A stretch of DNA of 64,000 nt, taken from Reichenbachiella agariperforans (lineage in GTDB: Bacteria; Bacteroidota; Bacteroidia; Cytophagales; Cyclobacteriaceae). A program made the position numbers and the translations under genes. The first letter of the stretch is position 1. Each line of letters begins with the position of its first letter. The stretch spans positions 1,510,796-1,574,795 of the forward strand of contig NZ_FRAA01000001.1 of assembly GCF_900142205.1 (NCBI RefSeq), read 5' to 3'. This document shows positions 40,084 through 55,317 of the stretch, piece by piece. The notes below the pieces were generated by a model, which searched no databases, was not told where the DNA came from, and worked only from the letters and a program-made list of their open reading frames with translations.

Positions 40084-41000
40084 TAGTAGCTTCTTTTGAG
40101 TGGTAAAGTAGAACAACGAAACAATCCTTCCATCTTAGAAATCTCTGTATAAGGCACACGCTCTACTGTAAAACCACGCCGTTCGAGCTCGGTATTCAGC
40201 CGATCAAAACCTGCTTCACTCACGATCACTTCTGGTGATATCGAAAACACATTGGAATTCATGTGATACATCTCATCTTGCGTGATCTCAATACAGTTGT
40301 CCGCACCGAACTCTGCTACTAACCATTCGTAATCGGATAGATTTTTGAATCCCCCCTTATAGATAATACACTGATCTCGCCCGATAGGCTGAAAACAACA
40401 ATCCAGATGCAATGCATTGGCCTTGGCATCTGTATCCGATTTTTTCAATTCGAAACCTATCACCTCATAGTTGGAAAAATGCTGCTCCAAAAACTCAAGT
40501 CCTGCACGATTGGTTCGACTCACCTTGTAGGCTTGATAGTCCTCCTCCTCCGAATAGCCGACGAATAAGCGACCTTTCCAGGGCATCACATCACCACCTT
40601 CCGCATGCGCCCCTTCGGGCATCACTAGGATATCCTCTGGGCTCACCTGATCGATCAGATAGGCTATCCCATCCTTTTCGTGCTCTCTGTCTTCTATAAT
40701 ATTAGGCATAATGAAAGTCTCGTCGATCACCATACCGATATCGCGGGCATACACCTGATTGGTATCAGCTAAGGTCTCGGGACGATATACTTTGACATGG
40801 TGTTTTTCCAGCACTGCTTTGAAAGCTTCGTTTTCGCGGATTAAATCTTCTTCTTTTGGGAACGTCCCGTCGATGATATGTTCTCGCGATTTAGGATCGT
40901 AGACATGTGCCAGGTCAGGAGTCCCTCCTAAACTCATGGCCGTCCCCAGCACCACAGCTTCTAGTGGTGCAGTTTCGTCCTTAATCATCAATTTTATCAT
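40083..41000 (-). CDS. Arginine-deiminase / dimethylarginine-dimethylaminohydrolase-fold protein
   Basis: A 305-residue guanidino-group-modifying enzyme distinct from the ctlX product. Features: VYARDIGMVIDETFIMPNI (about 102-120), PEGAHAEGGDVMPWKGRLFVG (about 150-170, the EGGD motif), ALHLDCCFQPIGRDQCIIYKGG (catalytic His, about 212-233) and FRCSTLPLKRSY at the C-terminus (catalytic Cys about 297). It may hydrolyse arginine, methylarginine or agmatine-like substrates; true agmatine deiminases (PPADI) look different. First gene of the minus-strand run and divergent from the arginine decarboxylase gene. Confidence 0.82.
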   Translation of the reverse strand: MIKLMIKDETAPLEAVVLGTAMSLGGTPDLAHVYDPKSREHIIDGTFPKEEDLIRENEAFKAVLEKHHVKVYRPETLADTNQVYARDIGMVIDETFIMPNIIEDREHEKDGIAYLIDQVSPEDILVMPEGAHAEGGDVMPWKGRLFVGYSEEEDYQAYKVSRTNRAGLEFLEQHFSNYEVIGFELKKSDTDAKANALHLDCCFQPIGRDQCIIYKGGFKNLSDYEWLVAEFGADNCIEITQDEMYHMNSNVFSISPEVIVSEAGFDRLNTELERRGFTVERVPYTEISKMEGLFRCSTLPLKRSY

Positions 41001-41145
41001 TATTGGTCATTTTTTGGGTCTGCAAATTTAACCGTATTTTATACAAAACATTTCAAAGTCCGAAAACATAAATAATTGATGGTGGTTTTTCATTTTTTGT
41101 GATATTTGTAGGATTTAATAAAGCAAAACGTTGACTCCAGATTAG

Positions 41146-42534
41146 ATGAATAAGTACATAGACCTGATAGACCAGACCTTTTATTTCCCCACGAAAGAAT
41201 TTGAAGTAAAGGATGATAATTTGTTTTTTCATGGTGTCGACCTTCAAGCAATCATCAACGAGTACGGAACTCCTCTCAAACTCACCTACCTCCCTAAAAT
41301 CTCCGAACAAATCCAAAATGCCAAACAACTATTCAAAGAGGCAATGGAGAGAAAAAACTATCAGGGGAAATACACCTACTGCTACTGCACCAAGTCTTCG
41401 CACTTTCAGTTCGTGGTAGAAGAGGCACTCAAAAACGACATCCATCTAGAAACTTCGTCTGCTTATGACATCTCCATCATCAAAAGTCTCTACGCCAAAA
41501 AACAAATCACGAAAGAGACCTATATCGTCTGCAACGGATTCAAAAGACCGCTATATGTAGAGGAAATCAGTGGCCTGCTCAATGATGGTTTCAAGAACTG
41601 CCTCCCCATCCTAGACAATATGAAGGAGCTCGAATACTACGAGCAGCACGTCAATGACAACTACCAGATGGGGTTGCGAGTGGCCTCTGACGAAGAGCCG
41701 AGCTTTAGCTTTTACACGTCCAGACTAGGGATACGCTACAACAAGATCGTGGACTTCTACGAAGAACGTATCAAAGGCAAGACCAAAGGACAGCTCAAAA
41801 TGCTGCATTATTTCATCAATACAGGGATCAAGGATACCGCCTACTACTGGAACGAACTGAGTCGCTTTGTCAACAAATACTGTGAACTCAAAAAAGTATG
41901 TCCAGAAATCGAGTCTATTGATATAGGAGGTGGATTCCCAATCAAAAACTCACTTCACTTCGAATATGACTATGCCTACATGGTCGATCAGATCGTAGAG
42001 CAAATCCAAAGCATCTGCAAGGAGCATGATGTCCCTACCCCTAACATCTTTACGGAGTTCGGGAGCTATACCGTAGGAGAAAGTGGTGCGAATATATACT
42101 CTGTTTTGGACCAAAAACTCCAAAATGACAAGGAACTATGGTACATGATGGATGGCTCATTCATCACACACATGCCAGATGTGTGGGGTCTAAACACCAA
42201 GTTTACCATGCTGCCCATCAACCTATGGAACAATGACTATCACCGTGTCAACATCGGTGGGCTGACCTGTGACAGCATGGACTACTATGACTCAGAGGCA
42301 CATATTGCAGAGGTTTTCCTCCCTAAAATTAAAAAAGAGCAATCGCTATACTTTGGCTTCTTCAATACGGGGGCATACCAAGAATCACTCGGAGGCTATG
42401 GCGGGATACAGCACTGTCTGATCCCTGCTGCCAAACATGTGATCATAGAAAAAGATGCTGACGGAAACATGGTTTCAAGATTGTTCGCCCCCGAACAAAG
42501 TAGCGAACAAATGCTAAAGATACTTGGCTATTGA
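41146..42534 (+). CDS. speA: Arginine decarboxylase (fold-type III PLP, Bacteroidota type)
   Basis: A 462-residue PLP decarboxylase of the alanine-racemase-like fold. PLP Lys is in YTYCYCTKSSHFQFVVEEAL (about 77-96) and IESIDIGGGFPIKNSL holds the glycine-rich phosphate loop (about 260-275). The C-terminal barrel contains ESGANIYSVLDQK and GAYQESLGGYGGIQHCL (active-site region). It is annotated as arginine decarboxylase by resemblance to the roughly 460-residue Bacteroidota enzyme; diaminopimelate or carboxynorspermidine decarboxylase is less likely. It would convert arginine to agmatine for polyamines, and faces two arginine-family hydrolase genes. Confidence 0.78.
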   Translation: MNKYIDLIDQTFYFPTKEFEVKDDNLFFHGVDLQAIINEYGTPLKLTYLPKISEQIQNAKQLFKEAMERKNYQGKYTYCYCTKSSHFQFVVEEALKNDIHLETSSAYDISIIKSLYAKKQITKETYIVCNGFKRPLYVEEISGLLNDGFKNCLPILDNMKELEYYEQHVNDNYQMGLRVASDEEPSFSFYTSRLGIRYNKIVDFYEERIKGKTKGQLKMLHYFINTGIKDTAYYWNELSRFVNKYCELKKVCPEIESIDIGGGFPIKNSLHFEYDYAYMVDQIVEQIQSICKEHDVPTPNIFTEFGSYTVGESGANIYSVLDQKLQNDKELWYMMDGSFITHMPDVWGLNTKFTMLPINLWNNDYHRVNIGGLTCDSMDYYDSEAHIAEVFLPKIKKEQSLYFGFFNTGAYQESLGGYGGIQHCLIPAAKHVIIEKDADGNMVSRLFAPEQSSEQMLKILGY

Positions 42535-42592
42535 AACCGTTGACTCCTAAAACCGTCCTAATTTAGCCAGTAACACCATAGAAAACATATCC

Positions 42593-43321
42593 TTGAACGA
42601 TAGTCTAGTCATAATCCCCACCTTCAACGAGAAAGAAAACATCCAAGCCATCATACAAACTGTGATCGATTTGGATCAAGGCTTTGATGTATTGATTGTG
42701 GACGATGGATCACCCGATGGAACAGCGACCCTAGTCAAATCAATGATGGAGGTGCACCCGCAGATTCATATCATCGAGCGAGAAGGAAAACTTGGCTTAG
42801 GAACTGCCTATATCACTGGCTTCCAATTCGCGATAGATCATGGCTTTGACTACATCTTCGAGATGGATGCCGATTTTTCACATAACCCTGCCGATCTGAT
42901 CCGTCTCCGAACTGCCTGCCGAGAAGATGGCTATGACATGGCCGTCGGTTCTCGCTACATCTCAGGAGTCAATGTCGTCAACTGGCCTATGGATCGTGTA
43001 CTCATGTCTTACTTTGCCAGTATCTACGTTCAGTTCATCACTGGCATCCCCGTCAAAGACACCACTGCAGGTTTCAAGTGCTACCGGCGAGAAGTCCTCG
43101 ACACCATCGGCCTAGACAATATCCACTTTGTGGGCTATGCATTCCAAATCGAAATGAAATTCCAGGCATGGAAGTACAATTTTAAAATCACCGAAGTACC
43201 TATCATTTTCACAGATCGCACACTAGGACACTCCAAAATGAGCCGAGGCATATTCAAAGAGGCTGTTATCGGGGTGATACAAATGAAAATCAAGAGTTTG
43301 TTCAAAAAGTATATCCGCTGA
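42593..43321 (+). CDS. Polyprenol-phosphate mannosyltransferase-like GT2 glycosyltransferase
   Basis: A 242-residue GT-A fold enzyme of the Dpm1 type. Motifs: IIPTFNEKENIQAII (about 7-21), LIVDDGSPDGT (about 34-44), EMDADFSHNPADL (about 92-104, DxD-like) and VGSRYISGVNVVNWP (about 118-132). Such enzymes transfer mannose (or glucose) to an undecaprenyl/dolichyl phosphate for use outside the cell, for example in lipoprotein or S-layer O-glycosylation. No C-terminal membrane domain. TTG is the start codon. It follows speA after 58 bases. Confidence 0.88.
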   Translation: MNDSLVIIPTFNEKENIQAIIQTVIDLDQGFDVLIVDDGSPDGTATLVKSMMEVHPQIHIIEREGKLGLGTAYITGFQFAIDHGFDYIFEMDADFSHNPADLIRLRTACREDGYDMAVGSRYISGVNVVNWPMDRVLMSYFASIYVQFITGIPVKDTTAGFKCYRREVLDTIGLDNIHFVGYAFQIEMKFQAWKYNFKITEVPIIFTDRTLGHSKMSRGIFKEAVIGVIQMKIKSLFKKYIR

Positions 43322-43424
43322 TAGAAAATACTTATCATCCCATCTCCTAATTTGATTCAATTTTCCGATCCTAAGGTGCCGTCTTTGCGTTATTTGTAGT
43401 GAATAGAACTTAAACAAATAGATC

Positions 43425-43868
43425 ATGATCAAGAATCAAAATATTATAGACCAGTTAAACGGGTTACTGTCAGATTATCAAATCTTCTATCAAAACCTGA
43501 GAGGGTTTCACTGGAATATCCAAGGAAAAAACTTCTTTGAACTCCATGTTAAATTCGAAGAACTCTATACCGAGACCAATGTCAAAGTAGACGATATCGC
43601 AGAGAGAATCTTAACGATAGGCGGCACCCCGATTCACAACTTCCAAGATTATTTGGATACTGCAGAGCTAGTCCCTGTAAAGAATGTCCATGATGATGAG
43701 ACTGCAGTCAAAACCATCGTCTCCAACCTAGAAAAAATCATCATTAAGGAGAAAGCAATCAAAGAAGCCGCAGGTGCCGTCGATGACAGTGGTACCGAAG
43801 ACCAAATGTCAGCCTTCGTCGAGGAGCAAGAAAAAACACTCTGGATGTACAAAGCTTGGTTGAAATAA
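43425..43868 (+). CDS. dps: Dps-family ferritin-like DNA-protecting protein
   Basis: 147 residues. The intersubunit ferroxidase signature NLRGFHWNIQGKNFFELHVKFEELYTETNVKVDDIAERIL (about 24-63) carries the His, Asp and Glu ligands. Forms a dodecamer that oxidises iron with H2O2 and protects DNA in starvation or oxidative stress. The N-terminus is short without a Lys-rich tail, so direct DNA binding may be weak. A bidirectional terminator separates it from the response regulator. Confidence 0.93.
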   Translation: MIKNQNIIDQLNGLLSDYQIFYQNLRGFHWNIQGKNFFELHVKFEELYTETNVKVDDIAERILTIGGTPIHNFQDYLDTAELVPVKNVHDDETAVKTIVSNLEKIIIKEKAIKEAAGAVDDSGTEDQMSAFVEEQEKTLWMYKAWLK

Positions 43869-43889
43869 TCAAATAAAGCATTCCTACAC

Positions 43890-43918
43890 AAAGCCATCTT
43901 ATCTGATAAGATGGCTTT
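43890..43918. terminator. Bidirectional terminator between dps and the response regulator
   Basis: AAAGCCATCTTAT (43890-43902) pairs with ATAAGATGGCTTT (43906-43918) over CTG. Confidence 0.88.
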
Positions 43919-43919
43919 T

Positions 43920-44567
43920 CTATTTTAGTAATCCTTTGAGAATCGTCTGCTTTACCAAACCTGCCGTGTTTTTCACTCCAAGTTTGGACAAGAGGTTCTT
44001 GCGGTGCGTATTGACGGTGTGTTGACTAATAAAAAGCTTTTCTGCGATTTCTTGAGCCGTAAACTCTTCCACGATCAAATGTAAAATTTCCTTTTCCCGT
44101 TTGCTCAAAGCAGTCTGGACAGTACTGCTAGTCGTAGCAGACGAAAACAGGCTCTCTGTATACTTCTTTTGAACCTCCTGCGAAAAATGCTTGCCCCCAG
44201 TAGCTACTGTTTTGATAGCCGTTAGCAATTCGTTTTTCTCTGCGTTTTTTAGCAGATAACCATCCACCCCTCCTTTGATGAGCTTCTGAATGATATCAGG
44301 ATCATTATGAGTGGTCAGTACCAATACTTTCGCTTGTATATTTCGCTTTTTTAACTCGGCATTCAACTGTATCCCATCCATATGCGGCATACTCACATCT
44401 GTCACCACTACATCTACAGGTGCGTCTTTCAAAGTATCGATTACCGCTCTAGCATCCGTTAGAACACCTACCACCTCTACCTGTTCGTCACCTACCAGTA
44501 TAGACGACAACCCATCCAAAAACATTTGATGATCATCTACGATTAGTACTTTTATACTTTTTTGCAT
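43920..44567 (-). CDS. NarL/FixJ-family response regulator
   Basis: A 215-residue two-component regulator. Receiver at about 6-122: acidic pair in VLIVDDHQMFLDG, phospho-Asp in VDVVVTDVSMPHMDGIQL (about 57) and Lys in GYLLKNAEKNEL. LuxR-type HTH at about 150-213: LSKREKEILHLIVEEFTAQEIAEKLFISQHTVNTHRKNLLSKLGV. It lies 33 bases downstream of a HisKA_3 kinase, its likely partner. The two 16-bp palindromes at 46605-46646 are candidate target sites (inference). Confidence 0.93.
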   Translation of the reverse strand: MQKSIKVLIVDDHQMFLDGLSSILVGDEQVEVVGVLTDARAVIDTLKDAPVDVVVTDVSMPHMDGIQLNAELKKRNIQAKVLVLTTHNDPDIIQKLIKGGVDGYLLKNAEKNELLTAIKTVATGGKHFSQEVQKKYTESLFSSATTSSTVQTALSKREKEILHLIVEEFTAQEIAEKLFISQHTVNTHRKNLLSKLGVKNTAGLVKQTILKGLLK

Positions 44568-44600
44568 TCCTATCTCTATAAAAACTGTACGCTACCAAAT

Positions 44601-46550
44601 CTACGCCACCACTGGAACAGTCAAGTCGATGTTAACAATCGTCCCTCTCCCTACACTCGAATCGATATGCATTGTCCCTTTCAATGTTTCCAATCGGTGT
44701 TTGATATTCTCTAAACCGATCCCTTTATTCTTTTGAGAGCGATCAAACCCTCGGCCATCATCCTCCACGATCAGATTGATTTCTCTATCATTTTTCGTCA
44801 GCGACACCTCTGCAGACTTTGCGCTAGCATGTTTCACTACATTTGCGACGAGTTCTTGAATAATCCGATACAGATCCACTTTGAACTGAACTGGCATATC
44901 ATTCAAATTCAACTCCTGAGAGGTGACGAGCTGAAAATCTACCCCCGTAGCATCTGCTATCTCATGCACATAATCCTGTATCAAAGCGACAAACGGAGCA
45001 CTCATAACCTTGAACGGTGTAAGGTTGTGCGACAAACTCCTGACCTCTTCGTAGATATCTCCCACCGCAGAAATAATCAGATCTAGCCCTAACCCTTTGC
45101 TATCTTCAACATGTCTTAAGTTCAATTTGACAGCAGCCAAAGAACCCGCTACTCCATCATGTAATTCCTTGGCCATACGAACTCTCTCCCGCTCCTGACC
45201 TGCCAAACTTGCCTTAATGGTTTTAATTTCGTTTTCCTTTAAAATATCTTTGATTACTTGTTGATTGATCTCGTCATTCTTCTGCGCCAACAACTGACTT
45301 GTCTTTAGTTTTTGCGCATACACGAAAATGAAAGAAATAAGCACAATCGACATACACACACTGCCTACTATGGCCACATTCCTAATTAACTCGTGCTTCT
45401 CCAAATTAGCCTTTTGCATAAGTTGCTCGGATTGCAACATTGCTATTTCCTTTTCTTTCTTCTCTGATTCATACTTAGCAAGAACTTCCTCTAACTGCTT
45501 ATTCTTATCTAGGGAATACAGAGTATCCTTCATTTGGGAATGAACGAACATATTATCATAGGCCAGTTTATAATTCCCATATGCCGCTTGATTAATAGCC
45601 ATATTGGCAAGAATAAACACCTCATTACTAAGCTCATATTTTCGCGCTAATTCAAGACTCTTTTGATAGTAGTCATCTGCCAATTGATAAGACTTCAACT
45701 GATTATAGATCAACCCAAGCATATTATATGGGTGAACAAGTGCTATCTCATTGCCCTGACTCAAACTGTAATTCACTAAGTCCAAACAAAAAGGCAATGC
45801 TTCTTGAGCCCGCCCTTCTTCCCAGTACAATGAGGTTAGATAATCAACAATCACATAAACACTTGCACTATCCTGCACCTGTTCAGCTAAGTTCAATCCA
45901 AATTCATAATAATAGCTTGCACTATCGAAATGTCCCTGTTTTTGTTTTGTCAAACCAATGTTCCCCAAAATTGTAACTTTTGCTTTCATCGAAGGATTCA
46001 TAGCCAGAGCTTCGTTAAAATACCTTATAGCCTCTTCATAGTGAGACTGCTCTTGATGTACAATCCCAATGTTATTTTTTATTTTAAGAATTTCCTCTTT
46101 AATCTCCAGCTCCTCAGCGTATCTTAAGGCTATTTTATACTGTTGCATTCCTGTCTTATGCTCACCCATATTACGCAACACATTGCCCATTGTCTTATGC
46201 AAGACCATCAAATATTCCCCATCTCTCGAAACCTCAAAAAGCTCTTTGGCACTCTGCAAATAATCTAGAGACCGTTTGTTATCTAACAAACCATAGTACA
46301 TCTCCCCTAAGAGGAAATAACTCTTTGCTAGTCCCAAATCATAACCTGCTATTTTACTGAGCTCAACACTTTTATGTAATAACACCTCCATACTATCAAC
46401 ATCATAAATCAGTCCCTCTGCACGAACTATTAAAGCGTCAACGTCAGCTTTTTGATCAATTATTTGTGCAAATAATTGGCCTTCTGATATAGAAAACACA
46501 AGGATAAAGAGGAGTAAAACAGATAAAATAAGTTTGTTAATTTCTAGCAT
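44601..46550 (-). CDS. TPR-containing sensor histidine kinase (HisKA_3 / NarX-like)
   Basis: 649 residues. Signal/anchor at the N-terminus (LILSVLLLFILVFSISEGQLFAQ). Six to seven TPRs (about 60-365, for example EEILKIKNNIGIVHQEQSHYEEAIRYFNEAL) form a periplasmic sensor region. A membrane span follows at about 390-412 (IVGSVCMSIVLISFIFVYA), then the dimerisation/phosphoacceptor box QERERVRMAKELHDGVAGSLAAVKLNLRH (His near 465) and a HATPase domain ending with DDGRGFDRSQKNKGIGLENIKHRLETLKG. It pairs with the NarL regulator downstream and is divergent from the LipL32-like gene. Confidence 0.93.
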   Translation of the reverse strand: MLEINKLILSVLLLFILVFSISEGQLFAQIIDQKADVDALIVRAEGLIYDVDSMEVLLHKSVELSKIAGYDLGLAKSYFLLGEMYYGLLDNKRSLDYLQSAKELFEVSRDGEYLMVLHKTMGNVLRNMGEHKTGMQQYKIALRYAEELEIKEEILKIKNNIGIVHQEQSHYEEAIRYFNEALAMNPSMKAKVTILGNIGLTKQKQGHFDSASYYYEFGLNLAEQVQDSASVYVIVDYLTSLYWEEGRAQEALPFCLDLVNYSLSQGNEIALVHPYNMLGLIYNQLKSYQLADDYYQKSLELARKYELSNEVFILANMAINQAAYGNYKLAYDNMFVHSQMKDTLYSLDKNKQLEEVLAKYESEKKEKEIAMLQSEQLMQKANLEKHELIRNVAIVGSVCMSIVLISFIFVYAQKLKTSQLLAQKNDEINQQVIKDILKENEIKTIKASLAGQERERVRMAKELHDGVAGSLAAVKLNLRHVEDSKGLGLDLIISAVGDIYEEVRSLSHNLTPFKVMSAPFVALIQDYVHEIADATGVDFQLVTSQELNLNDMPVQFKVDLYRIIQELVANVVKHASAKSAEVSLTKNDREINLIVEDDGRGFDRSQKNKGIGLENIKHRLETLKGTMHIDSSVGRGTIVNIDLTVPVVA

Positions 46551-46604
46551 TTGAGGGGTTAAACTCTATTCATTTTTCAAAGATAACATGACACCTCACT
46601 GAGC

Positions 46605-46620
46605 TCACTAAAAATAGTGA
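46605..46620. promoter_or_regulatory. Candidate operator 1, 16-bp palindrome TCACTAAAAATAGTGA
   Basis: Two 6-base arms with an AAAA centre, in the 157-base gap between the kinase and LipL32-like genes. Matches operator 2 at 12 of 16 positions, each arm change being compensated on the other side. Confidence 0.6.
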
Positions 46621-46630
46621 TTCTTTTTTT

Positions 46631-46646
46631 TCGCTATTTATAGCGA
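46631..46646. promoter_or_regulatory. Candidate operator 2, 16-bp palindrome TCGCTATTTATAGCGA
   Basis: Same layout as operator 1, starting 26 bases further on. The shared consensus is TCrCTAwwwATAGyGA. Compensated A/G and T/C changes in the arms argue for selection on the palindrome. Confidence 0.6.
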
Positions 46647-46707
46647 TGCATAGAGATAACCAACAATCTAATATTGCAAAGTATTATTTAAAAAATCATA
46701 TATAAAG

Positions 46708-47406
46708 ATGAAAAGCACACTATCAAAAATTAGTTTTATTGCAATGACACTATGTGTCGTTTTCGCAACAAATACTTCTGCTCAAAAACTAGGCAGCTTC
46801 GGTAGCCTTACAGAAAAAACCGTTGGCCCAAAAACCATCAAAGTACCTTATACAGATGTCGTATCATACCTCGGCTATGCAGCTGCTGGCAATGAAGACG
46901 CTACTGTAGATGGTAAAAAATTCTACTACATCTATATCTGGGTACCCGCAGTAGCTCCTGAACTAGGTGTGAGAATGATGTCTCCAGTCGGAAAAACCAA
47001 AGTAAAAAACGCTATAGAAGCGGCAGACTATGCAGATCACGCAGGTGACAAAGACTATTTTGATACCTACATCACACTAGAGCGATCTACTATCATCTCT
47101 AAGGATGACATCAATGAAGCCGCTGTATCTAGTGCTAAATGGACAACACTAGAAAGAAATGACGACAGCAGCGAGATGCCTAGTCAGCCAAGTGGTAGCA
47201 ACTACAACTCACTCTTGAGATACAAAAGTGAAGTAGGTAACCCGACTAAAGCACTTACAGTAGGTCTATACAGAGTAGGTTTCACGACATACAAAACAGG
47301 TGAAGTCAACGGTACATTCCTAGCAGAGGTAGCAGCACCTATCAAACTCCCAGGTGTAGCAATGGCCAAAACACTAGACGAGTTGAACAAGCAGATCAAC
47401 CAATAA
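46708..47406 (+). CDS. LipL32-like surface protein
   Basis: A 232-residue secreted protein with a plain signal peptide (cleaved after about 26, NTSAQ|KLG) and no lipid Cys. The mature part matches the Leptospira major surface lipoprotein LipL32 (PF12103), compared from memory: VDGKKFYYIYIWVPAVAPELGVRMMSP (about 68-93), YFDTYITLERS (about 117-127), NYNSLLRYK (about 165-173) and GLYRVGFTTYKTGEVNGTFLAEV (about 187-209). Residues equivalent to the reported LipL32 calcium ligands appear kept: Asp119-Thr120, Asp152-Asp153 and Tyr166. Divergent from a kinase/regulator operon. Probably an abundant envelope or secreted protein of unknown role. Confidence 0.85.
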   Translation: MKSTLSKISFIAMTLCVVFATNTSAQKLGSFGSLTEKTVGPKTIKVPYTDVVSYLGYAAAGNEDATVDGKKFYYIYIWVPAVAPELGVRMMSPVGKTKVKNAIEAADYADHAGDKDYFDTYITLERSTIISKDDINEAAVSSAKWTTLERNDDSSEMPSQPSGSNYNSLLRYKSEVGNPTKALTVGLYRVGFTTYKTGEVNGTFLAEVAAPIKLPGVAMAKTLDELNKQINQ

Positions 47407-47553
47407 TAACAATCTATTCGAGTCCTCAGTTTTTCTCCGCCTAACCCCAAAACTGAGGACTCTACACATACAGACTGGTTTTTTTGATACGGCACTCATT
47501 GACCTACTAACCTCGCCTTATTCTAAAGAGCCAGTCATTTTATCTTTTCAATC

Positions 47554-47952
47554 ATGATCGAAAGCTATTTATCTATCGGGCTAGGCACCCTCTCACTGAT
47601 CCTTCTATTGGTCAAACACCTACTACAGGCTAACAACTCCACACTCCATACGCTACAGGCTATAGTCAGCATGGCTTTTAGTGCAGTGGGGCTTTACACT
47701 ATTCTATCTCTCACACTATCCATAGAGTCTACTGAGCAATTAGACGCACTTTTGCTCCTTCGTATCGGTACCAATTTGACAGTTGTCACGCTGGGAGGCT
47801 TCATTCTTAATGACGCCATCACTTCCTTCAACCTGACCGTATCGCAGCATCTTAAGCCCACAGCACTACCTTATCAGAAGATTCCCCTATTCCGTACCTT
47901 CTTGAGTTTGTCTAGTATATCACTTGGAGTTATTCAAATGTATGTGAGCTAA
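47554..47952 (+). CDS. Small polytopic membrane protein, unknown function
   Basis: 132 residues with about four hydrophobic spans (about 5-24, 35-57, 68-90 and 108-130). The N-terminus is MIESYLSIGLGTLSLILLLVK. No family recognised. Its stop overlaps the convergent thioredoxin-like gene by 4 bases. The 147-base gap before it holds nothing recognisable. Confidence 0.65.
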   Translation: MIESYLSIGLGTLSLILLLVKHLLQANNSTLHTLQAIVSMAFSAVGLYTILSLTLSIESTEQLDALLLLRIGTNLTVVTLGGFILNDAITSFNLTVSQHLKPTALPYQKIPLFRTFLSLSSISLGVIQMYVS

Positions 47953-48380
47953 AGCGCTTCTATAGTACCCAAAAACTGATTTTTCTTTTGGTATCCGACG
48001 ATGAGTTCGTGTGAGCTCAAGTCGGGATCAAAAACCACCATGGTTGGCAACCCAGTAATCCCTACATCTTGCGCTAATTCTTTAGCAGTCACTTTTTTCC
48101 CTCCAAACATAAATTGCTCAGGGCTATCTATATCTAATTTTACAGGATAGAAACTTGCATTCATTTTCTCAGCTACCTCTTCGTCCGAGAAGGTCGTCTG
48201 ATCCATTTTCTTACACCAGCCACACCAAACCGCCGTAAAGTCAACAAAAATCGGTTTTTCCACACTGGACTGCATCGCCTGCGCCTCTTCTACACTGTAC
48301 CACTGGATGGCTGTATCTTGTGCCTGAGTATACAATATCGTAGACAGGCCAATGACTATGGTAAAGATTAATGCCTTCAT
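47949..48380 (-). CDS. Periplasmic thioredoxin-family protein
   Basis: A 143-residue thioredoxin fold with signal peptide (MKALIFTIVIGLSTILYTQAQ, cleavage about 21) and a CxxC centre in DFTAVWCGWCKKMDQTTFSDEEV (Cys at about 53 and 56). VGITGLPTMVVFDPD carries the cis-Pro. The layout resembles the C-terminal domain of DsbD and thiol:disulfide oxidoreductases that keep periplasmic cysteines reduced. No partner gene is adjacent. Confidence 0.88.
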   Translation of the reverse strand: MKALIFTIVIGLSTILYTQAQDTAIQWYSVEEAQAMQSSVEKPIFVDFTAVWCGWCKKMDQTTFSDEEVAEKMNASFYPVKLDIDSPEQFMFGGKKVTAKELAQDVGITGLPTMVVFDPDLSSHELIVGYQKKNQFLGTIEAL

Positions 48381-48541
48381 ATTCTTCCTTTTAAAATGAC
48401 TTTATGATTCGGAAATCTAACGACTCCCTTCTTTTCAAGATTCGTTTCTTAGATATTTTTATTCGATGGATTGAAAAAGGAAACAATTCATCCATTTTTC
48501 GTCAGCGGCACGTTAATTTAACGGTGACAATTTTTTGACGC

Positions 48542-49303
48542 ATGTACATCAATCTATCAGGACTTAACATACTCGTCACAGGTGCGAGCAAAGGGATCGG
48601 CAAAGCCATCGCGACGAAACTCGCCGAAGCGGGCGCTACCATCGCCGTGCATTACAACAAAAACATGAGAGAGGCCGAAAACCTCGCGCAAGTTCTCGGT
48701 AATGAATCCCGTGCTTTCCAAGCAGACCTATCTCAGCCAGACGAAGCTGCAAACCTCTTCGACCGAGTCGTCCTAGAGATGGGCAGCATAGAAATCCTCG
48801 TCAACAACGCAGGAGTTGCCATGCCTGTCAACATTGACGCAAAGGAAACCGACTGGATGACGACTTGGAATACGACCATTCAGGTCAATCTCACCTCCTG
48901 CGGAGTGTTGTGCAAAAAAATTGTGGAGCATTTCATCAAACGAAACGCCACAGGCCGAATCATTAACATTACTTCTAGGGCTGCCTTCAGAGGAGATACC
49001 GCCGAGTACATGGCGTATGCTGCATCTAAAGCGGGGTTAGTTTCCCTCACCAAAACGATAGCACGCGCGTATGGCAAACAAGGTATCAAAGCATTTAGCA
49101 TCGCTCCAGGGATCGTCCGGACAGACATGGGAAAAGAAACCATGGAAAAATACGGCAGTGAACATGCGACAGGAGACCTAGCACTGGAACGCCTCACCGA
49201 ACCAAAAGATATAGCACCCATGGTCACTTTCTTAGCCAGTGGTATGGCAGATCACGCCACAGGCAGTACGATTGACCTCAACGCTGGTAGCTACGTTCAC
49301 TAA
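48542..49303 (+). CDS. SDR-family oxidoreductase, FabG-like
   Basis: A 253-residue NAD(P)-dependent reductase. Motifs: ILVTGASKGIGKAIATKLAE (about 10-29), VNNAGVAMPV, IINITSRAAFRGDTAEYMAYAASKAGLVSLTK (Ser/Tyr/Lys triad, about 139-170) and the C-terminal GSTIDLNAGSYVH. It resembles 3-oxoacyl-ACP reductase, but isolated FabG paralogues often act on other substrates. Not close to other fatty-acid genes. Confidence 0.88.
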   Translation: MYINLSGLNILVTGASKGIGKAIATKLAEAGATIAVHYNKNMREAENLAQVLGNESRAFQADLSQPDEAANLFDRVVLEMGSIEILVNNAGVAMPVNIDAKETDWMTTWNTTIQVNLTSCGVLCKKIVEHFIKRNATGRIINITSRAAFRGDTAEYMAYAASKAGLVSLTKTIARAYGKQGIKAFSIAPGIVRTDMGKETMEKYGSEHATGDLALERLTEPKDIAPMVTFLASGMADHATGSTIDLNAGSYVH

Positions 49304-49306
49304 AGC

Positions 49307-49423
49307 TCAATCGACCCCTATTACTAAAAACAAGAATAGGAGAAAAAACAGCATAAAGAGATAGAAAAAAAGATCTATCCTAAAATACTTCTTGTACTTG
49401 CCATAAAAGTCTTTGAGGTTCAT
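49307..49423 (-). CDS. Small 38-residue single-span membrane protein
   Basis: An unusually short frame: ATG at 49421-49423, stop at 49307-49309. The N-terminus is basic and aromatic (MNLKDFYGKYKKYFRIDL), followed by one strongly hydrophobic helix (FFYLFMLFFLLFLFLVIG) ending VD. The positive-inside pattern is good for a small inner-membrane protein. It lies between the SDR gene and pruA, convergent with the first and divergent from the second. Function unknown. Confidence 0.5.
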   Translation of the reverse strand: MNLKDFYGKYKKYFRIDLFFYLFMLFFLLFLFLVIGVD

Positions 49424-49471
49424 TTGCTATCTCTTATTTGGGAAATCAAAATTATATCATTCTTAGAAATT

Positions 49472-49499
49472 TTGGGTAGGGATATCTTTCTTAAATTTG
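49472..49499 (+). promoter_or_regulatory. pruA promoter (TTG ... TAAATTTG)
   Basis: TTG at 49472-49474 and the exact -7 box TAAATTTG at 49492-49499, spacing 17 bases. It lies 34 bases before the ATG. Confidence 0.62.
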
Positions 49500-49533
49500 C
49501 AATCCAAAATTGTAACATTAAACACAAAATGAT

Positions 49534-51165
49534 ATGCCCAAAGGAATATATCCCGTGCCTACCCCTGTCAATGAACCCATCAAAAGCTACAAGGCAGGTA
49601 GTCCCGAAAAAATAGCACTAAAGGCTGCCGTCGCGCAGATGAGGAGCGAAGAGCTAGATGTACCGATGTACATCGGTGCAGAAAAAGTGACCACTGACGA
49701 CAAAGTTAGAATGGCTCCTCCCTATGATCATCAGCACACCCTGGGCTACTTCAACCGTGGAGATGCGGATCACGTCGAACAAGCCATCAATGCCGCACTG
49801 GGTGCTAAAGACGCTTGGCAGAGCCTATCTTGGGAGCACAGAGCGAGCATTTTCCTAAAAGCAGCGGACTTGTTAGCAGGTCCTTACCGAGCGAAGATCA
49901 ATGCAGCAACCATGCTGGGACAATCCAAAAATGCATTTCAGGCGGAAATCGACTCTGCATGCGAACTCATAGACTTCTTGCGATTCAACGTGCACTTCAT
50001 GACACAGATATATAGCCAGCAACCGATTTCCTCTCCAGGGATGTGGAATAGGCTAGAGTATCGTCCGCTCGAAGGGTTCATTTTTGCCATCACACCATTC
50101 AACTTTACAGCGATCGCGGGCAACCTATCCGCAGCGCCAGCGATGATGGGCAATACCATCGTATGGAAACCTGCTGACACGCAAATCTACTCTGCGCAGG
50201 TGATCATGGAAGTATTCAAAGAAGCTGGCTTACCTGATGGTGTCATCAACTTGATCTACACTGACGGACCAGTGGCTGGCGATGTGGTATTCAACCACCG
50301 TGATTTTGCGGGGCTACACTTTACAGGCAGTACAGCCGTTTTCCAACAGCTCTGGAAAACCATAGGAGAAAATGTAACCAAGTACAGAACCTATCCAAGA
50401 ATCGTCGGAGAAACAGGTGGAAAGGACTTCATCATTGCACATAAGTCTGCTAACCCAAAAGCTGTTGCGACGGGTATCGTCAGAGGAGCATTTGAGTTCC
50501 AAGGGCAGAAATGTAGTGCTGCATCACGCGCCTACATCCCACAAAACATCTGGGATGAGACGAAAGCTAAGGTTCTATCTGATCTAGATACAATCACTGT
50601 AGGTTCTCCTGAGGATTTCACCAATTTCGTCAATGCAGTGATCGACGAACGTGCATTTGATAAGATCTCAGGCTACATCGACAAAATCAAAGCCAGTGAT
50701 CATGCCGAAATCATCGCAGGCGGTGGCTATGACAAGTCCAAAGGCTACTTCATCGAGCCTACAGTAGTCGTGACCAAAGACCCAATGTTCTTGACGATGT
50801 GTGAGGAAATATTTGGTCCAGTCATTACCATCTACGTCTATCATCCTGAGCATTTCGAAGAGGCGCTCGAACTCGTAGACAAAACCTCTGACTATGCACT
50901 GACAGGAGCAATCTTCTCAGACGATCGCTATGCTATCGAACTGGCTACCAAAAAACTGCAAAATGCTGCAGGTAATTTCTACATCAACGACAAGCCAACA
51001 GGCGCAGTAGTCGGACAGCAACCATTCGGTGGCGCTAGAGGATCAGGTACCAATGACAAAGCAGGCTCTGTACTAAATCTACTCAGATGGGTGTCACCAC
51101 GTACAATCAAAGAGACTTTTGATGCTCCACATGACTACCGTTATCCATTTTTGGAAGAAAAGTAG
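49534..51165 (+). CDS. pruA: L-glutamate gamma-semialdehyde dehydrogenase (1-pyrroline-5-carboxylate dehydrogenase)
   Basis: A 543-residue ALDH-family enzyme converting P5C/glutamate semialdehyde to glutamate in proline breakdown. Residues: FNFTAIAGNLSAAPAMMGNTIVWKPADTQ (NAD-binding loop, about 188-216), RIVGETGGKDFIIAH (general-base Glu, about 290) and GAFEFQGQKCSAASRAYIP (catalytic Cys about 329). The single-domain form lacks PutA proline dehydrogenase; the PRODH gene is not in the window. Confidence 0.95.
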   Translation: MPKGIYPVPTPVNEPIKSYKAGSPEKIALKAAVAQMRSEELDVPMYIGAEKVTTDDKVRMAPPYDHQHTLGYFNRGDADHVEQAINAALGAKDAWQSLSWEHRASIFLKAADLLAGPYRAKINAATMLGQSKNAFQAEIDSACELIDFLRFNVHFMTQIYSQQPISSPGMWNRLEYRPLEGFIFAITPFNFTAIAGNLSAAPAMMGNTIVWKPADTQIYSAQVIMEVFKEAGLPDGVINLIYTDGPVAGDVVFNHRDFAGLHFTGSTAVFQQLWKTIGENVTKYRTYPRIVGETGGKDFIIAHKSANPKAVATGIVRGAFEFQGQKCSAASRAYIPQNIWDETKAKVLSDLDTITVGSPEDFTNFVNAVIDERAFDKISGYIDKIKASDHAEIIAGGGYDKSKGYFIEPTVVVTKDPMFLTMCEEIFGPVITIYVYHPEHFEEALELVDKTSDYALTGAIFSDDRYAIELATKKLQNAAGNFYINDKPTGAVVGQQPFGGARGSGTNDKAGSVLNLLRWVSPRTIKETFDAPHDYRYPFLEEK

Positions 51166-51216
51166 AATAGAAATGGTGTTTACATTTCGTGTTCTCACCA
51201 AGTCAAAACACAGTAC

Positions 51217-51248
51217 AAAGTCCCTATCATTTAGATAGGGACTTTTTT
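51217..51248 (+). terminator. pruA terminator
   Basis: AAAGTCCCTATC (51217-51228) pairs with GATAGGGACTTT (51234-51245) over ATTTA, followed by a T-run to 51248. Confidence 0.9.
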
Positions 51249-51298
51249 CATGTCCAAAAAACACTGATATCTCATCGATTTCAAGAGATTTGCAGCCT

Positions 51299-52057
51299 AT
51301 GGTAGAACTATTCGGATATACGCTGAGCTACTCAGCCCTCGCCTCATTTTGTGTAGTAGGTATATTAGTTGGGATGTCGAAGACTGGAGTCGCTGGTGTG
51401 AGCAAACTAGCTGTACCACTACTAGCCGTAGCTTTTGGTGGTAAAGAATCGAGCGGACTTATGCTCCCAGTACTCATCATGGCAGACTTCATAGGTGTCA
51501 AGTACTACCACCGACATGCCGAAACTAAATACCTATGGAAACTTCTGCCTTGGACAATCATAGGCGTGCTGGCAGGCACCTATTTTGGTCAACAGATAGA
51601 TGACAAGACCTTCCGCATCATCATGGGTGTGATCATATTCCTCAGTCTCATCGTCATGCTATGGATGGAGCGTACCAACAAAGAAAAAATACCTGACTAT
51701 CTATGGTTTGCAGCGCTAATGGGGATCGTGGCTGGGTTCACCACGATGGTGGGTAACTTGGCAGGTAGTGCCATGGCACTATATCTACTATCCATGCGTC
51801 TACCCAAAAACCAATACATCGGTACAGCAGCTTGGTTCTTTATCTGTGTCAACATATTCAAAGTTCCTTTTCATATCTGGGTCTGGGAGACCATCACATG
51901 GCATTCCTTTCTTTTAGATCTCATCCTTATTCCATTCATTGCTATAGGAGCCCTTGTAGGAATTAAAATCATCAAGAAAATCTCAGATCAGTATTTCAGA
52001 TGGTTCGTCATTCTGATGACCACTGTAGCAGCTATTTTCATGATTTTGAGCAGTTAA
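51299..52057 (+). CDS. TauE/SafE-family sulfite/organosulfonate exporter-like permease
   Basis: 252 residues from ATG 51299; a TTG at 51290 would add three. About eight membrane spans. ILVGMSKTGVAGVSKLAVPLLAVAFGGKESSGLMLPVLIMADFIG is the characteristic first repeat (GxxxSKTG), and VGNLAGSAMALYLLSMRLPKNQYIGTAAWFFICVNIFKVP the second. Family members move sulfite, sulfoacetate or similar anions; the substrate is not determinable. Monocistronic. Confidence 0.88.
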   Translation: MVELFGYTLSYSALASFCVVGILVGMSKTGVAGVSKLAVPLLAVAFGGKESSGLMLPVLIMADFIGVKYYHRHAETKYLWKLLPWTIIGVLAGTYFGQQIDDKTFRIIMGVIIFLSLIVMLWMERTNKEKIPDYLWFAALMGIVAGFTTMVGNLAGSAMALYLLSMRLPKNQYIGTAAWFFICVNIFKVPFHIWVWETITWHSFLLDLILIPFIAIGALVGIKIIKKISDQYFRWFVILMTTVAAIFMILSS

Positions 52058-52081
52058 AGTGTGTTAAATCACGCTTTAACT
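52052..52081. repeat. Hairpin over the TauE/SafE stop codon
   Basis: AGTTAAAGTGTG pairs with CACGCTTTAACT (12 bp, one wobble) over TTAAAT. No T-run; possibly an mRNA 3'-end stabiliser. Confidence 0.5.
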
Positions 52082-52266
52082 ACTGAATATCAATCAACTA
52101 TGTAACCTCTATGAATATTTATCATTTGATGGCTTCAAATTAATTCAGTATTCTTGCGTTGCTAAGTATAGGGAAACGAAAAAACGCCAGCCTCCCACCC
52201 TATTCTCTAACGTTTTAATACTAAAATCACATCAGTTCACTAACCTACTGAATGTGCCAAAATCAT

Positions 52267-53340
52267 ATGATTAATTATAAATTTAAAAGCAAAGAAGAAA
52301 ACGATTTCTGGAGTGTTCTTAGAAAAAGAGTAAATACCTACTTCAAAGAAAACAATCTAGAAAAAGATGCAAACAGACACATGGTGATCAAATCGATCGC
52401 ATTGTTCTCGCTCTATCTCACGCCATTCTTTATCCTCATATTCGCAGGCATTACGAACCTATACATCCTGATGTCTCTCTGGGTGATCATGGGGTTAGGC
52501 AAGGCCTTTATAGGTACGGCTGTGATGCACGATTCTATACACGGCGCCTATTCTAAGAATAAAAGTTACAATAGCATTGTCGCCTTCTCGGCTGCTTTGG
52601 TTGGTGTAGATAGATTGATCTGGAAGATCCAGCACAACGTCATACACCACACCTATACCAACATTGAGGATACCGATGAGGACATTCTACCTAGGTTCTT
52701 CTTCAGGTTCTCTGAGCATCAGCCCAAGCGGTGGTTTCACAGATTTCAGCACATCTATGCGCCGATATTCTACTGTGTACCACTACTGGAGTGGATCACA
52801 ACCAAAGATTTCGTGAAGGCTTTTGAATATCGCCAAATGGGACTCATCAAAAAAGGAGCTGAATTCAGAAAGGAGTTTGCAGGAATTTTCTTCCGAAAAC
52901 TCATGTACTATGTCGTGTTTCTAGTACTTCCCGTCCTTATGATTGATATCCCTGTAGGAACTACTATCGTGATGATCATCGTATCTCATGCGGTGACAGG
53001 CATCATGTTAGCACTGATTTTTCAGACCGCACATGTGGTTCCTAACGCCAGCTTCGTCAAGGCTGAAAGTGAAAACCTAGATACCTGCTGGGCATCACAT
53101 CAGATCCTGACGACCTCTAACTATGGGATGAAAAACAAAATTCTGACTTGGTTCGTAGGGGGGCTAAACTTCCAAATCGAGCATCATCTCTTCCCTGATG
53201 TGTGTCATGTACACTATCCCGCTATTGCTAAAATCGTGCAACAGACCACCAGCGAATATGATCTGCCCTACTATAGCTTTCCAAGTTTCCGCTCGGCAGT
53301 AGCAGGACACTTTGGTATGCTCCGGGATTTAGGGAAATAA
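52267..53340 (+). CDS. Membrane fatty-acid desaturase
   Basis: 357 residues with the three His boxes of membrane desaturases: HDSIH (88-92), HNVIHH (123-128) and QIEHH (303-307). QIEHH in place of HxxHH marks the front-end/acyl-lipid type, here without a fused cytochrome b5. Four or so membrane spans lie at about 42-80, 105-115, and 195-250. The product would be an unsaturated membrane fatty acid, for example for cold adaptation. The start at 52267 (MINYKFKSKEEN) is preferred; ATG 52252 adds five residues. It needs a separate electron donor, not seen nearby. Confidence 0.9.
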   Translation: MINYKFKSKEENDFWSVLRKRVNTYFKENNLEKDANRHMVIKSIALFSLYLTPFFILIFAGITNLYILMSLWVIMGLGKAFIGTAVMHDSIHGAYSKNKSYNSIVAFSAALVGVDRLIWKIQHNVIHHTYTNIEDTDEDILPRFFFRFSEHQPKRWFHRFQHIYAPIFYCVPLLEWITTKDFVKAFEYRQMGLIKKGAEFRKEFAGIFFRKLMYYVVFLVLPVLMIDIPVGTTIVMIIVSHAVTGIMLALIFQTAHVVPNASFVKAESENLDTCWASHQILTTSNYGMKNKILTWFVGGLNFQIEHHLFPDVCHVHYPAIAKIVQQTTSEYDLPYYSFPSFRSAVAGHFGMLRDLGK

Positions 53341-53351
53341 GAAATACTATA

Positions 53352-53384
53352 AATAATGAATCGACATCTCGTCGATTCATTATT
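53352..53384. terminator. Bidirectional hairpin between desaturase and kinase genes
   Basis: AATAATGAATCGAC (53352-53365) pairs with GTCGATTCATTATT (53371-53384) over ATCTC. It overlaps the last codons of the convergent kinase gene. Confidence 0.65.
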
Positions 53385-55317
53385 CTCCAGCCTTCAATAC
53401 GATCGTTATTTTAGTCCCTACCTCTACTTGACTAGCAATATTCAGTTCGCCATTAGATTTCTCGACAAATTCCTTGACGAGATTGAGCCCCATTCCGCTC
53501 CCCTTCTCATTGGCTGTCCCTCGTTGCGTCGTGAATGTCGACGTAAATAAGATTTTATTGAGTTGCTCGGGAGTCATTCCTACCCCGTCATCTTGAATAC
53601 TAAAAAGTACATGACCTGACTGATCCGACACTGCTCCTGCTATCGTGATACAACCACCTGTGGATGAAAATTTGACTGCATTGGATATCAAATTGCGTAT
53701 AATGGCTAAAAGTGCATTTTCGTCCATCCATACCAAAACATCCTCCTGCACCTGATTGTCTACTTTCAGCGATTTATATGCTAGCTGATTATTAAAAAGG
53801 TCTACACAATGCTCCACAGCACCTTTGAGCTGGACGGACTTAGGGTTGAAAGCAAACCCGCGCTGCTGTGCGATCGACCAAGACAACAAATCATTGAGTA
53901 GCATACTCACCGAATGTGACGCGTTATTTATATCTACAACCAGACCGTGCGCTTCCTTGCTATCCTCTTCTAATTCGTCCTGCAACATATCGACTAGCAT
54001 CTGAATATTGGCCACTGGTGCTTTCAGGTCATGCGCTACGAATCCAAACAACTTATTCTTGGTTCTATCAGCCTCTGCCAATAGCTCCTTATTTCTGTAC
54101 AGCTTGTATGCCAACACAAACGCAACCAACAATAACGCCATCAATACAGCACCAAAAAGATACTGCTGTGCGATGATGGTTTCCTTATCGGCCAGTTCTC
54201 GCCCTCTCAATACATTTTCCTGTGTCAGTACTTCATTGAGTTTTTCTTTTTCCTCCAAATCATAGCGCCCCATCACATCCAGTAATTCTAGGTTTCGATT
54301 GACCTGAGCCAACGAGTCATCAGTCTCTGCATACCGTTCGTGATATTGATAAGCCAGCGCATACTTACCCTGTTTCGCATAGCATTCCGCTATCAGTCTC
54401 AGAATTTCAGGCTTTTCACGTGTCTCATGCGTGAACCTAACCAGGTCTAAACTTTTTTGAAAATGATCCATCGCCTGCTCATATTCGCCCAACTGGGTAT
54501 AGCTCACTCCCGCACTATAATGGACAAATATGAGCCCTGAATTAAATTGATGTGCCTGAAGGATTTCTTCTGACTTCTCAAAATACGTCAGCGCCTTATC
54601 ATAGGATTCCATGTAGTTATAAACCTCTCCTATATTGGCATAGGTAACACCCGCATCCAATTCATTTCCGATCTGAAGATTCATAGAAAGTGACTTCATA
54701 TAAAAATGTATGGCCTGGTCATATCGCTCCTCAAAAAAACGCACAATACCTATATACTCATAACAACTTGCTAGCCCAACCGAATCATAGCTAGCTTTCG
54801 CCATATGCAATGTGGATTGATAAATATCCTCTGCCTTGTCCAATTCGCCAATACTGACATAGATGCCTGCTAGTATGTGAGACGAACTAATCAATGATGC
54901 TGTATCTATCAAGGCTTTATAAATCCCTATGCTCTCCATGGCCGAATGGATAGATTTCACATTGTCTCCATAGCGCCACAGGATATGTGACATCCCCTCT
55001 AGAGCAGTAGCTTTTTCGTGCATCATGCTATCTTCCTCAGCTCGCCTTAAGGCTGTCTGATAGGTCGTGTATGCCTTTTGGAAGTCCCCTTGCTTATAGA
55101 GCAAATCGGCTATTTTATTATTGATTTGGACGAAAACAGTACCTGAGACATCATCGTGATATGACAGTACCTCTTCATACTGACTAACCGCACAATCATA
55201 GTCAGCAAGCCTAGCACAAGAATCCGCTCGCTCAATCATGACATCTATTGATTGTCCCAGACTATTGAACGAAAACACCATACTGGCCACAAGCCCTATG
55301 TAGATATTCCACCTCAT
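53380..55317 (-). CDS. TPR-containing sensor histidine kinase (HisKA type), no adjacent regulator
   Basis: 645 residues. N-terminal signal (MRWNIYIGLVASMVFSFNSLGQ), then about seven TPRs (about 30-330). A membrane span lies at about 388-408 (YLFGAVLMALLLVAFVLAYKLY), followed by HisKA with FGFVAHDLKAPVANIQMLVDML (phospho-His about 432). HATPase: NLISNAVKFSSTGG (N box, about 549-562), SIQDDGVGMTPEQL and GTANEKGSGMGLNLVKEFVEKS. Unlike the kinases at 44.6 and 60.3 kb, no response regulator is beside it. Confidence 0.92.
   Translation of the reverse strand: MRWNIYIGLVASMVFSFNSLGQSIDVMIERADSCARLADYDCAVSQYEEVLSYHDDVSGTVFVQINNKIADLLYKQGDFQKAYTTYQTALRRAEEDSMMHEKATALEGMSHILWRYGDNVKSIHSAMESIGIYKALIDTASLISSSHILAGIYVSIGELDKAEDIYQSTLHMAKASYDSVGLASCYEYIGIVRFFEERYDQAIHFYMKSLSMNLQIGNELDAGVTYANIGEVYNYMESYDKALTYFEKSEEILQAHQFNSGLIFVHYSAGVSYTQLGEYEQAMDHFQKSLDLVRFTHETREKPEILRLIAECYAKQGKYALAYQYHERYAETDDSLAQVNRNLELLDVMGRYDLEEKEKLNEVLTQENVLRGRELADKETIIAQQYLFGAVLMALLLVAFVLAYKLYRNKELLAEADRTKNKLFGFVAHDLKAPVANIQMLVDMLQDELEEDSKEAHGLVVDINNASHSVSMLLNDLLSWSIAQQRGFAFNPKSVQLKGAVEHCVDLFNNQLAYKSLKVDNQVQEDVLVWMDENALLAIIRNLISNAVKFSSTGGCITIAGAVSDQSGHVLFSIQDDGVGMTPEQLNKILFTSTFTTQRGTANEKGSGMGLNLVKEFVEKSNGELNIASQVEVGTKITIVLKAGE

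Follow-up and report, generated by a model that had tools for sequence, protein, structure and literature searches.

In Reichenbachiella agariperforans, the gene for an exported protein of the LipL32 family (PF12103, 232 aa) lies beside the genes of a two-component system. The reading that we favour, with belief somewhat stronger than doubt, is that this is a calcium-binding envelope protein of LipL32 type, switched on by the adjacent two-component system and probably serving surface attachment. The gene is on the + strand at 46708..47406 of the window (the whole stretch of 64,000 nucleotides that was analysed) and begins with ATG, as the initial annotation had read it.

In the Pfam profile search, PF12103 matched residues 42-219 along the whole model (positions 1-179 of 179) with 273.2 bits against a cut-off of 25, which bears out the relationship to LipL32 that the initial annotation had proposed from three quoted stretches. 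All three stretches aligned with LipL32 (E 7.4e-29), namely YYIYIWVPAVAPELGVRM with YYLYVWIPAVIAEMGVRM, YFDTYITLER with WFDTWIRVER, and GFTTYKTGEVNG with SFTTYKPGEVKG, and the identity to Leptospira LipL32 was 44% over 174 columns. In the structure model, the protein takes the jelly-roll fold of LipL32, with residues 156-163 poorly modelled. The NCBIfam equivalog NF038394, which stands for LipL32 sensu stricto, gave 110.8 bits, far below its threshold of 300. Compared with Leptospira LipL32 (PDB 2zz8, 3frl, 2wfk), the protein thus falls below the equivalog cut-off, has no lipobox and keeps the acidic loop in part. Judged by sequence, the 232-aa protein is a LipL32-family member, a real homologue, such as marine Bacteroidota were already known to have. 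Carriage on a plasmid or phage was also considered and was rejected, as none of 72,556 plasmid and 50,697 phage records matched at E 1e-5.

The calcium ligands of LipL32 are D132, T133, D164, D165, and Y178 (PMC5566480, PMC8951592). In the alignment, D132-T133 correspond to D119-T120 (codons at 47062..47067, + strand), D164-D165 to D152-D153 (47161..47166, +), and Y178 to Y166 (47203..47205, +), exactly the positions given in the initial annotation. The alignment used for ligands and lipobox was built from 97 ORFs, leaving out four fragments shorter than 200 aa and three loci missed by the motif filter (L047, L078, and L087). The results showed that the five ligand equivalents were invariant in 91/91 rows (the 232-aa protein, LipL32, and 89 relatives). 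The invariance of D119 and T120 was partly selected for, because FDTY lies inside one of the six motifs of the pattern search; D152, D153, and Y166 are outside this bias. The acidic run DDDDDGDD of LipL32 is partly kept as ERNDDSSE, which we count against the favoured reading. From the conserved ligands, we infer that the 232-aa protein binds calcium.

A signal peptide was read by eye at residues 1-25 (46708..46782, +), with a putative signal-peptidase I site of the Q-rule type, A25|Q26, and no lipobox. The missing lipobox had been noticed in the initial annotation, and a simple lipobox pattern was indeed absent from the first 40 residues, not just here but in 90/90 copies (the 232-aa protein and 89 relatives, nearly all Bacteroidota-named). 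AQK occurred near the predicted cleavage site in 89/90 copies, a type of site that fits the Q-rule reported for Bacteroidetes (PMC5837995). Lacking a lipobox is therefore the norm among the examined copies and not an oddity of one gene. Known models for a C-terminal type IX signal domain gave no Pfam or NCBIfam match at E up to 1, which rules out, as far as those models go, that the protein is type IX cargo. The LipL32-fold protein would be exported by Sec and signal peptidase I, its N-terminal glutamine probably cyclised to pyroglutamate, and would stay in the envelope, either in soluble form or attached peripherally.

A guide to function is PtlL32 of Pseudoalteromonas tunicata. According to PMC4080168, its deletion lowered attachment to Matrigel ten-fold and also lowered attachment to the alga Ulva, leaving attachment to polystyrene unaffected. 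By analogy, the most likely role of the product in R. agariperforans is to help the cell attach to biological surfaces or live on them. A different function has to be weighed, that of a structural or envelope-protecting protein of the periplasm that depends on calcium, is no adhesin, and is raised in level by an envelope-stress system on damage. Because LipL32 of Leptospira has been reported as largely subsurface (PMC3544172), such a structural role in the envelope has to be taken seriously as an alternative; we place its probability clearly below even. It is in keeping with a protein that has neither a lipobox nor a recognisable type IX signal domain, and with the position of the TPR repeats of the neighbouring kinase after an apparent signal peptide (by eye); the selective loss of Matrigel and algal attachment in the PtlL32 mutant speaks against it. 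A review further states that a LipL32 knock-out of Leptospira was unaffected in pathogenicity (PMC8951592), so that, together with the reported subsurface location, the adhesin role is uncertain even in Leptospira.

The favoured reading also rests on the genes around LipL32. In the window, the block runs in the order response regulator, histidine kinase, LipL32, and a 4TM protein, the first two lying directly upstream of LipL32 on the opposite strand. The regulator (43920..44567, − strand) is of NarL/FixJ type, with a receiver and a GerE (LuxR) HTH domain; the adjacent kinase (44601..46550, −) contains TPR repeats, HisKA_3, and HATPase_c, with a signal peptide and one TM segment recognised by eye. 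Downstream of LipL32, a hairpin with a perfect 14-bp stem (47420..47462, +, z −4.26), terminator- or stabiliser-like, precedes the gene of the 132-aa 4TM protein (47554..47952, +), which has about four hydrophobic segments and no Pfam match. A further ORF, on the − strand at 53380-55317 and some 6 kb away from LipL32, looks by eye like a kinase with TPR-like repeats; it matched the linked-kinase loci only weakly.

The block is bounded by a dps-like gene at 43425 (name by eye) and a thioredoxin-like gene at 47949. In the three LipL32-negative congeners examined (G302, G300, and G298), the whole block was missing as a unit and the flanks were retained; G302 had no ORF of at least 80 aa between them, and G300 and G298 had unrelated genes there. 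The linked kinase showed identities of 100, 56, 45, and 42% in the four LipL32-positive genomes of the genus, against 27-33% for the best match in the four negative ones, and the linked regulator 100, 77, 66, and 61% against 35-51%. The flanking thioredoxin-like protein followed the same division (100, 58, 56, and 57% against 47, 48, 46, and 36%), so the LipL32-positive congeners may form one clade and the co-absence may reflect a single gain or loss, a point against the favoured reading. A second such point is a kinase paralogue of 37% identity elsewhere in the R. agariperforans genome with no LipL32 beside it; the kinase matched 17-36 sequences per genome in the eight congeners.

The 157-bp gap between the kinase and LipL32 genes contains two perfect palindromes of the form TCRCTA-N4-TAGYGA, P1 (TCACTAAAAATAGTGA, 46605..46620), the proposed response-regulator site, and P2 (TCGCTATTTATAGCGA, 46631..46646), which starts 26 bp after P1. 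Twenty-two bp after P2 comes TAATATTG (46669..46676, +), a −7 box-like element with 5/6 of the positions of TAnnTTTG. Flavobacterial promoters also have a −33 element. The −7 box of the flavobacterial sigma-A is TAnnTTTG at −12 to −5 (PMC9723704); taking the element in the window to occupy these positions puts P1 at about −76 to −61 and P2 at about −50 to −35, so that P2 would abut the −33 region. From this position and from conservation, the regulator is predicted to bind the two tandem 16-bp palindromes.

At one mismatch, two palindromes were found in the window against 0.40 expected, and two anywhere were reached in 5/100 shuffles. The pair, allowing up to 3 mismatches, occurred a single time each in the R. 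agariperforans genome and, at the corresponding locus, in G299. The other six congeners yielded no such pair, G296 and G301 among them, which carry LipL32 with more degenerate sites, and the reversed-pattern control gave one match, in G298. The P1-P2 spacing was also present before LipL32 in L092, L094, L043, L050, and L049, with weaker cases in L093 and L069; in the loci sharing it, a −7-like box followed the paired site after 22-23 bp. The gaps of three other carriers of the divergent pair (L010, L015, and L095) yielded no paired site, which weighs against the favoured reading. A sigma-70 scan returned 12 matches against a mean of 12.2, no more than chance, and no RNA family was found by Rfam at gathering score in 40000-54000.

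Exact single palindromes numbered 12 in the genome, including the pair in the window, and 4 with the reversed-pattern control; as 4 of the other 10 lie inside ORFs, single palindromes are weak evidence. One perfect palindrome (G000, C14:299302; L237, 3303) stands 23 bp before TAATATTG, upstream of a gene for a 179-aa flavodoxin-like protein (name by eye), a possible further target of the regulator. At C11:423431 of G000 (L236, 3932 and 3954), the − strand gene for a 786-aa protein, exported as judged by eye, is preceded by two perfect palindromes with a distance of 22 bp between them.

Because the paired site lies in a divergent intergenic region common to both directions, it could serve autoregulation of the kinase-regulator pair alone, with LipL32 a neighbour that has no regulatory tie to it. 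In G297, an orthologous RR-HK pair occurs without LipL32 (L171, 6999-9636), and a one-mismatch palindrome is retained before the kinase gene (L171, 9666-9681), as this explanation would have it. Autoregulation alone nevertheless seems unlikely to us, since the −7 box-like element at fixed distance faces LipL32, the site precedes LipL32 in L050 and L049 with no kinase in the fetched stretch, and the flavobacterial site precedes 4TM-LipL32 genes downstream of a co-oriented HK-RR pair. G297, too, has a −7-like box, TACCTTTG, directed towards a 154-aa gene.

In 90 loci (the window, L001-L080, and L092-L100), the fetched stretch contained the kinase cluster in 37, the regulator cluster in 33, and a 4TM protein of ~140 aa in 41. 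For a regulator as neighbour, chance would give ~2.5% by our arithmetic (14 RRs above 100 bits in a 5.03-Mb genome, taken in 9-kb stretches). The remaining 57/90 loci, some of them ended by contig ends, had no such regulator in the fetched stretch, which we set against the favoured reading. Among drawn genomes, the regulator was near LipL32 in one of the six further LipL32 carriers of the order (L095 of L095-L100) and in 3/8 of those in the family of L001 (G582, G595, and G728, the centre genome counted in). These results indicate that the linkage of regulator and LipL32 is well above chance and yet a minority state, with lower values in the draws, which are less biased, than in the pattern search; a general linkage is ruled out by the 57 loci and the two draws.

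The linked regulators, which occur near LipL32 genes of several families, are orthologous on sequence evidence. In a tree with 25 paralogues of the genus, the 33 linked regulators and the unlinked one of G297 formed one clade (100/99). When paralogues of four further genomes were added, a clade of 31 rows (100/99) held 27 linked and 4 unlinked regulators; this tree left out 7 near-duplicate linked regulators, one truncated paralogue, 3 loci repeating linked rows, and 5 failing the length filter, and in one further comparison set 93 rows were thinned to 61. The unlinked members, in G297, G728, G582, and G583, have neighbours other than LipL32 genes, which counts against the favoured reading and rules out a regulator exclusive to LipL32. 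The initial annotation had placed the protein under two-component control; the adjacent pair, the co-absence of the block in three congeners, the orthologous regulators, and the operator-like pair of palindromes all point that way, and the control itself is something that we infer.

The genes are arranged in two ways. In the window, L010, L015, L043, L069, and L092-L095, regulator and kinase are followed by a divergent LipL32; in the flavobacterial arrangement, kinase, regulator, 4TM gene, sometimes a gene with a weak SIMPL match, and LipL32 are co-oriented. The adjacency might be inherited synteny without function, one ancestral cluster having been passed on or transferred together, and with the linked regulators forming one orthologous group and most loci having no RR/HK pair, this would account for part of what is seen. 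We find it quite improbable, because the association persists in both arrangements despite the different order and orientation of the genes, and because the geometry of the site upstream of the first target gene has mostly been retained.

In Flavobacteriaceae, many 4TM genes have an upstream site with ACCCTG-N4-CAGGGT and a second element like TCACTA-N4-AGGGT, followed after 22 bp by TAAATTTG or CATCTTTG. The spacing is 24 bp there, as against the 26 bp of the window type, and the half-sites differ, a further point against the favoured reading. A regular expression for the flavobacterial site matched upstream of 29/41 4TM genes, 1/95 LipL32, 1/18 kinase, 0/33 regulator, and 3/537 other ORFs, and one for the window type upstream of 6/95 LipL32, 4/18 kinase (in shared divergent gaps), 0/41 4TM, 0/33 regulator, and 1/537 other ORFs. 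Both expressions were written after the sites had been seen, so the counts describe an enrichment and are not a blind test. The LipL32 sites are undercounted, as some ORF starts are set too far upstream; L092-L094 are among these, and their sites were read directly in the site-geometry comparison. Of the three other ORFs with the flavobacterial site, one was an FG-GAP gene (L016) and two were DKNYY-cluster genes. These two (L059, 1383-2705; L068, 1102-2433) lie near a flavobacterial 4TM gene, and the L059 copy has a Pfam match.

The 4TM proteins of the two types may be distantly related. In L010 and L015, the gene that comes immediately after LipL32 is a 4TM gene of flavobacterial type, in the same place as the 4TM gene of the window. 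The hhalign probability between the window protein and flavobacterial cluster 1 was 5.9, so that proof of homology was rejected and the likeness is suggestive only, even though none of 150 within-block shuffles (maximum 20.7) reached the raw score of 22.9. The window 4TM protein is thus a possible distant relative of the LipL32-linked flavobacterial ones.

In L050 (Fulvivirga marina), a second paired palindrome at 132-173 precedes the gene of an FG-GAP/HYR protein (329-2869) with a CHU_C type IX signal, the one other ORF that the window-type expression matched; this gene is followed by a PorP/SprF gene and then by LipL32. A site common to LipL32 and a type IX-secreted protein of this kind argues against the purely structural, envelope-protecting role. 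A wider and tentative proposal, whose probability we put clearly below even, is that some Bacteroidota have one conserved surface- or envelope-sensing two-component system with paired palindromes that control LipL32, the 4TM protein, and, in certain species, also FG-GAP adhesins that are secreted by the type IX route and have a PorP/SprF partner, making up an undescribed attachment regulon.

LipL32-family genes are patchy. R. agariperforans was the one carrier in 296 genomes drawn across the phylum; with the centre genome counted in each time, there were 7 carriers in 291 drawn genomes of the order, 8 in 199 of the family of L001, and 4 in the set of 8 Reichenbachiella genomes. The pattern search contributed 80 of 108 confirmed loci, including Aquimarina, Winogradskyella, Formosa, Lacinutrix, Fulvivirga, Labilibaculum, and Tenacibaculum; neither this capped set of loci nor the draws of genomes give true frequencies. 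By the organism names of their records, those 80 loci are from Bacteroidota, except L069 ("bacterium"). In Tenacibaculum piscium, T. finnmarkense, and T. dicentrarchi (L073, L074, and L075), the LipL32-family genes have one common neighbourhood, with no regulator pair or 4TM gene in the fetched stretch. Several Aquimarina genomes have two LipL32-family genes ~1 to 14 kb apart (L002/L017, L004/L020, L008/L032, L034/L019, L042/L026, L006, and L038), in some cases (e.g., L005) with SPFH- and DUF6620-cluster genes between the copies.

A copy in Bacteroidota had been thought undescribed. This did not hold, since Table 2 of Gardiner et al. 2014 (PMC4080168) already lists PtlL32 orthologues from Cellulophaga algicola, C. 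lytica, Formosa agariphila, and Ulvibacter, and the pattern search added further Bacteroidota-named loci. These orthologues belong to the same phylum and protein family as the 232-aa protein, and Formosa and Cellulophaga relatives likewise have no lipobox pattern. The sections of PMC4080168 that deal with them give distribution and a tree, with no regulator pair, 4TM gene, or palindromes. PtlL32 itself, known here from the description in that paper, is likewise a marine orthologue outside the spirochaetes; it is called a lipoprotein there, unlike the 232-aa protein, and those sections do not mention a two-component neighbour. Among the titles listed in searches of the open-licence literature, none on a two-component system tied to a Bacteroidota LipL32 was found; measured against these titles, the RR-HK-LipL32-4TM block, the regulator linkage, and the paired site are new, and the LipL32 homologue is of a known kind. 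TPR histidine kinases with NarL-type regulators are numerous in Bacteroidota and have the same domain make-up as the pair in the window; the group described here differs in being orthologous (100/99) and in its frequent position next to LipL32; the window type also has the paired palindromic site in the shared intergenic region.

Under the reading that we favour, the TPR-bearing histidine kinase would sense an envelope or surface cue, the envelope being suggested by the TPR part that follows the apparent signal peptide (by eye), and would phosphorylate the NarL-type regulator. Bound to its paired site, the regulator would activate the TAnnTTTG-type promoter of LipL32, which would be its main target, with a possible effect on the divergent kinase gene.

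No lipoprotein of pathogenic Leptospira is reported to be expressed more abundantly than LipL32 (PMC4080168), and its role is unsettled, with reports of binding to matrix and to TLR2, of a subsurface location, and of a knock-out without effect on pathogenicity. The features that merit testing at the bench are the regulator linkage and the paired site. With a sensor pair next to its gene and a predicted operator, this non-lipidated relative offers a way to ask, in environmental bacteria, which signal prompts the production of a LipL32-type protein and what function such a protein has.
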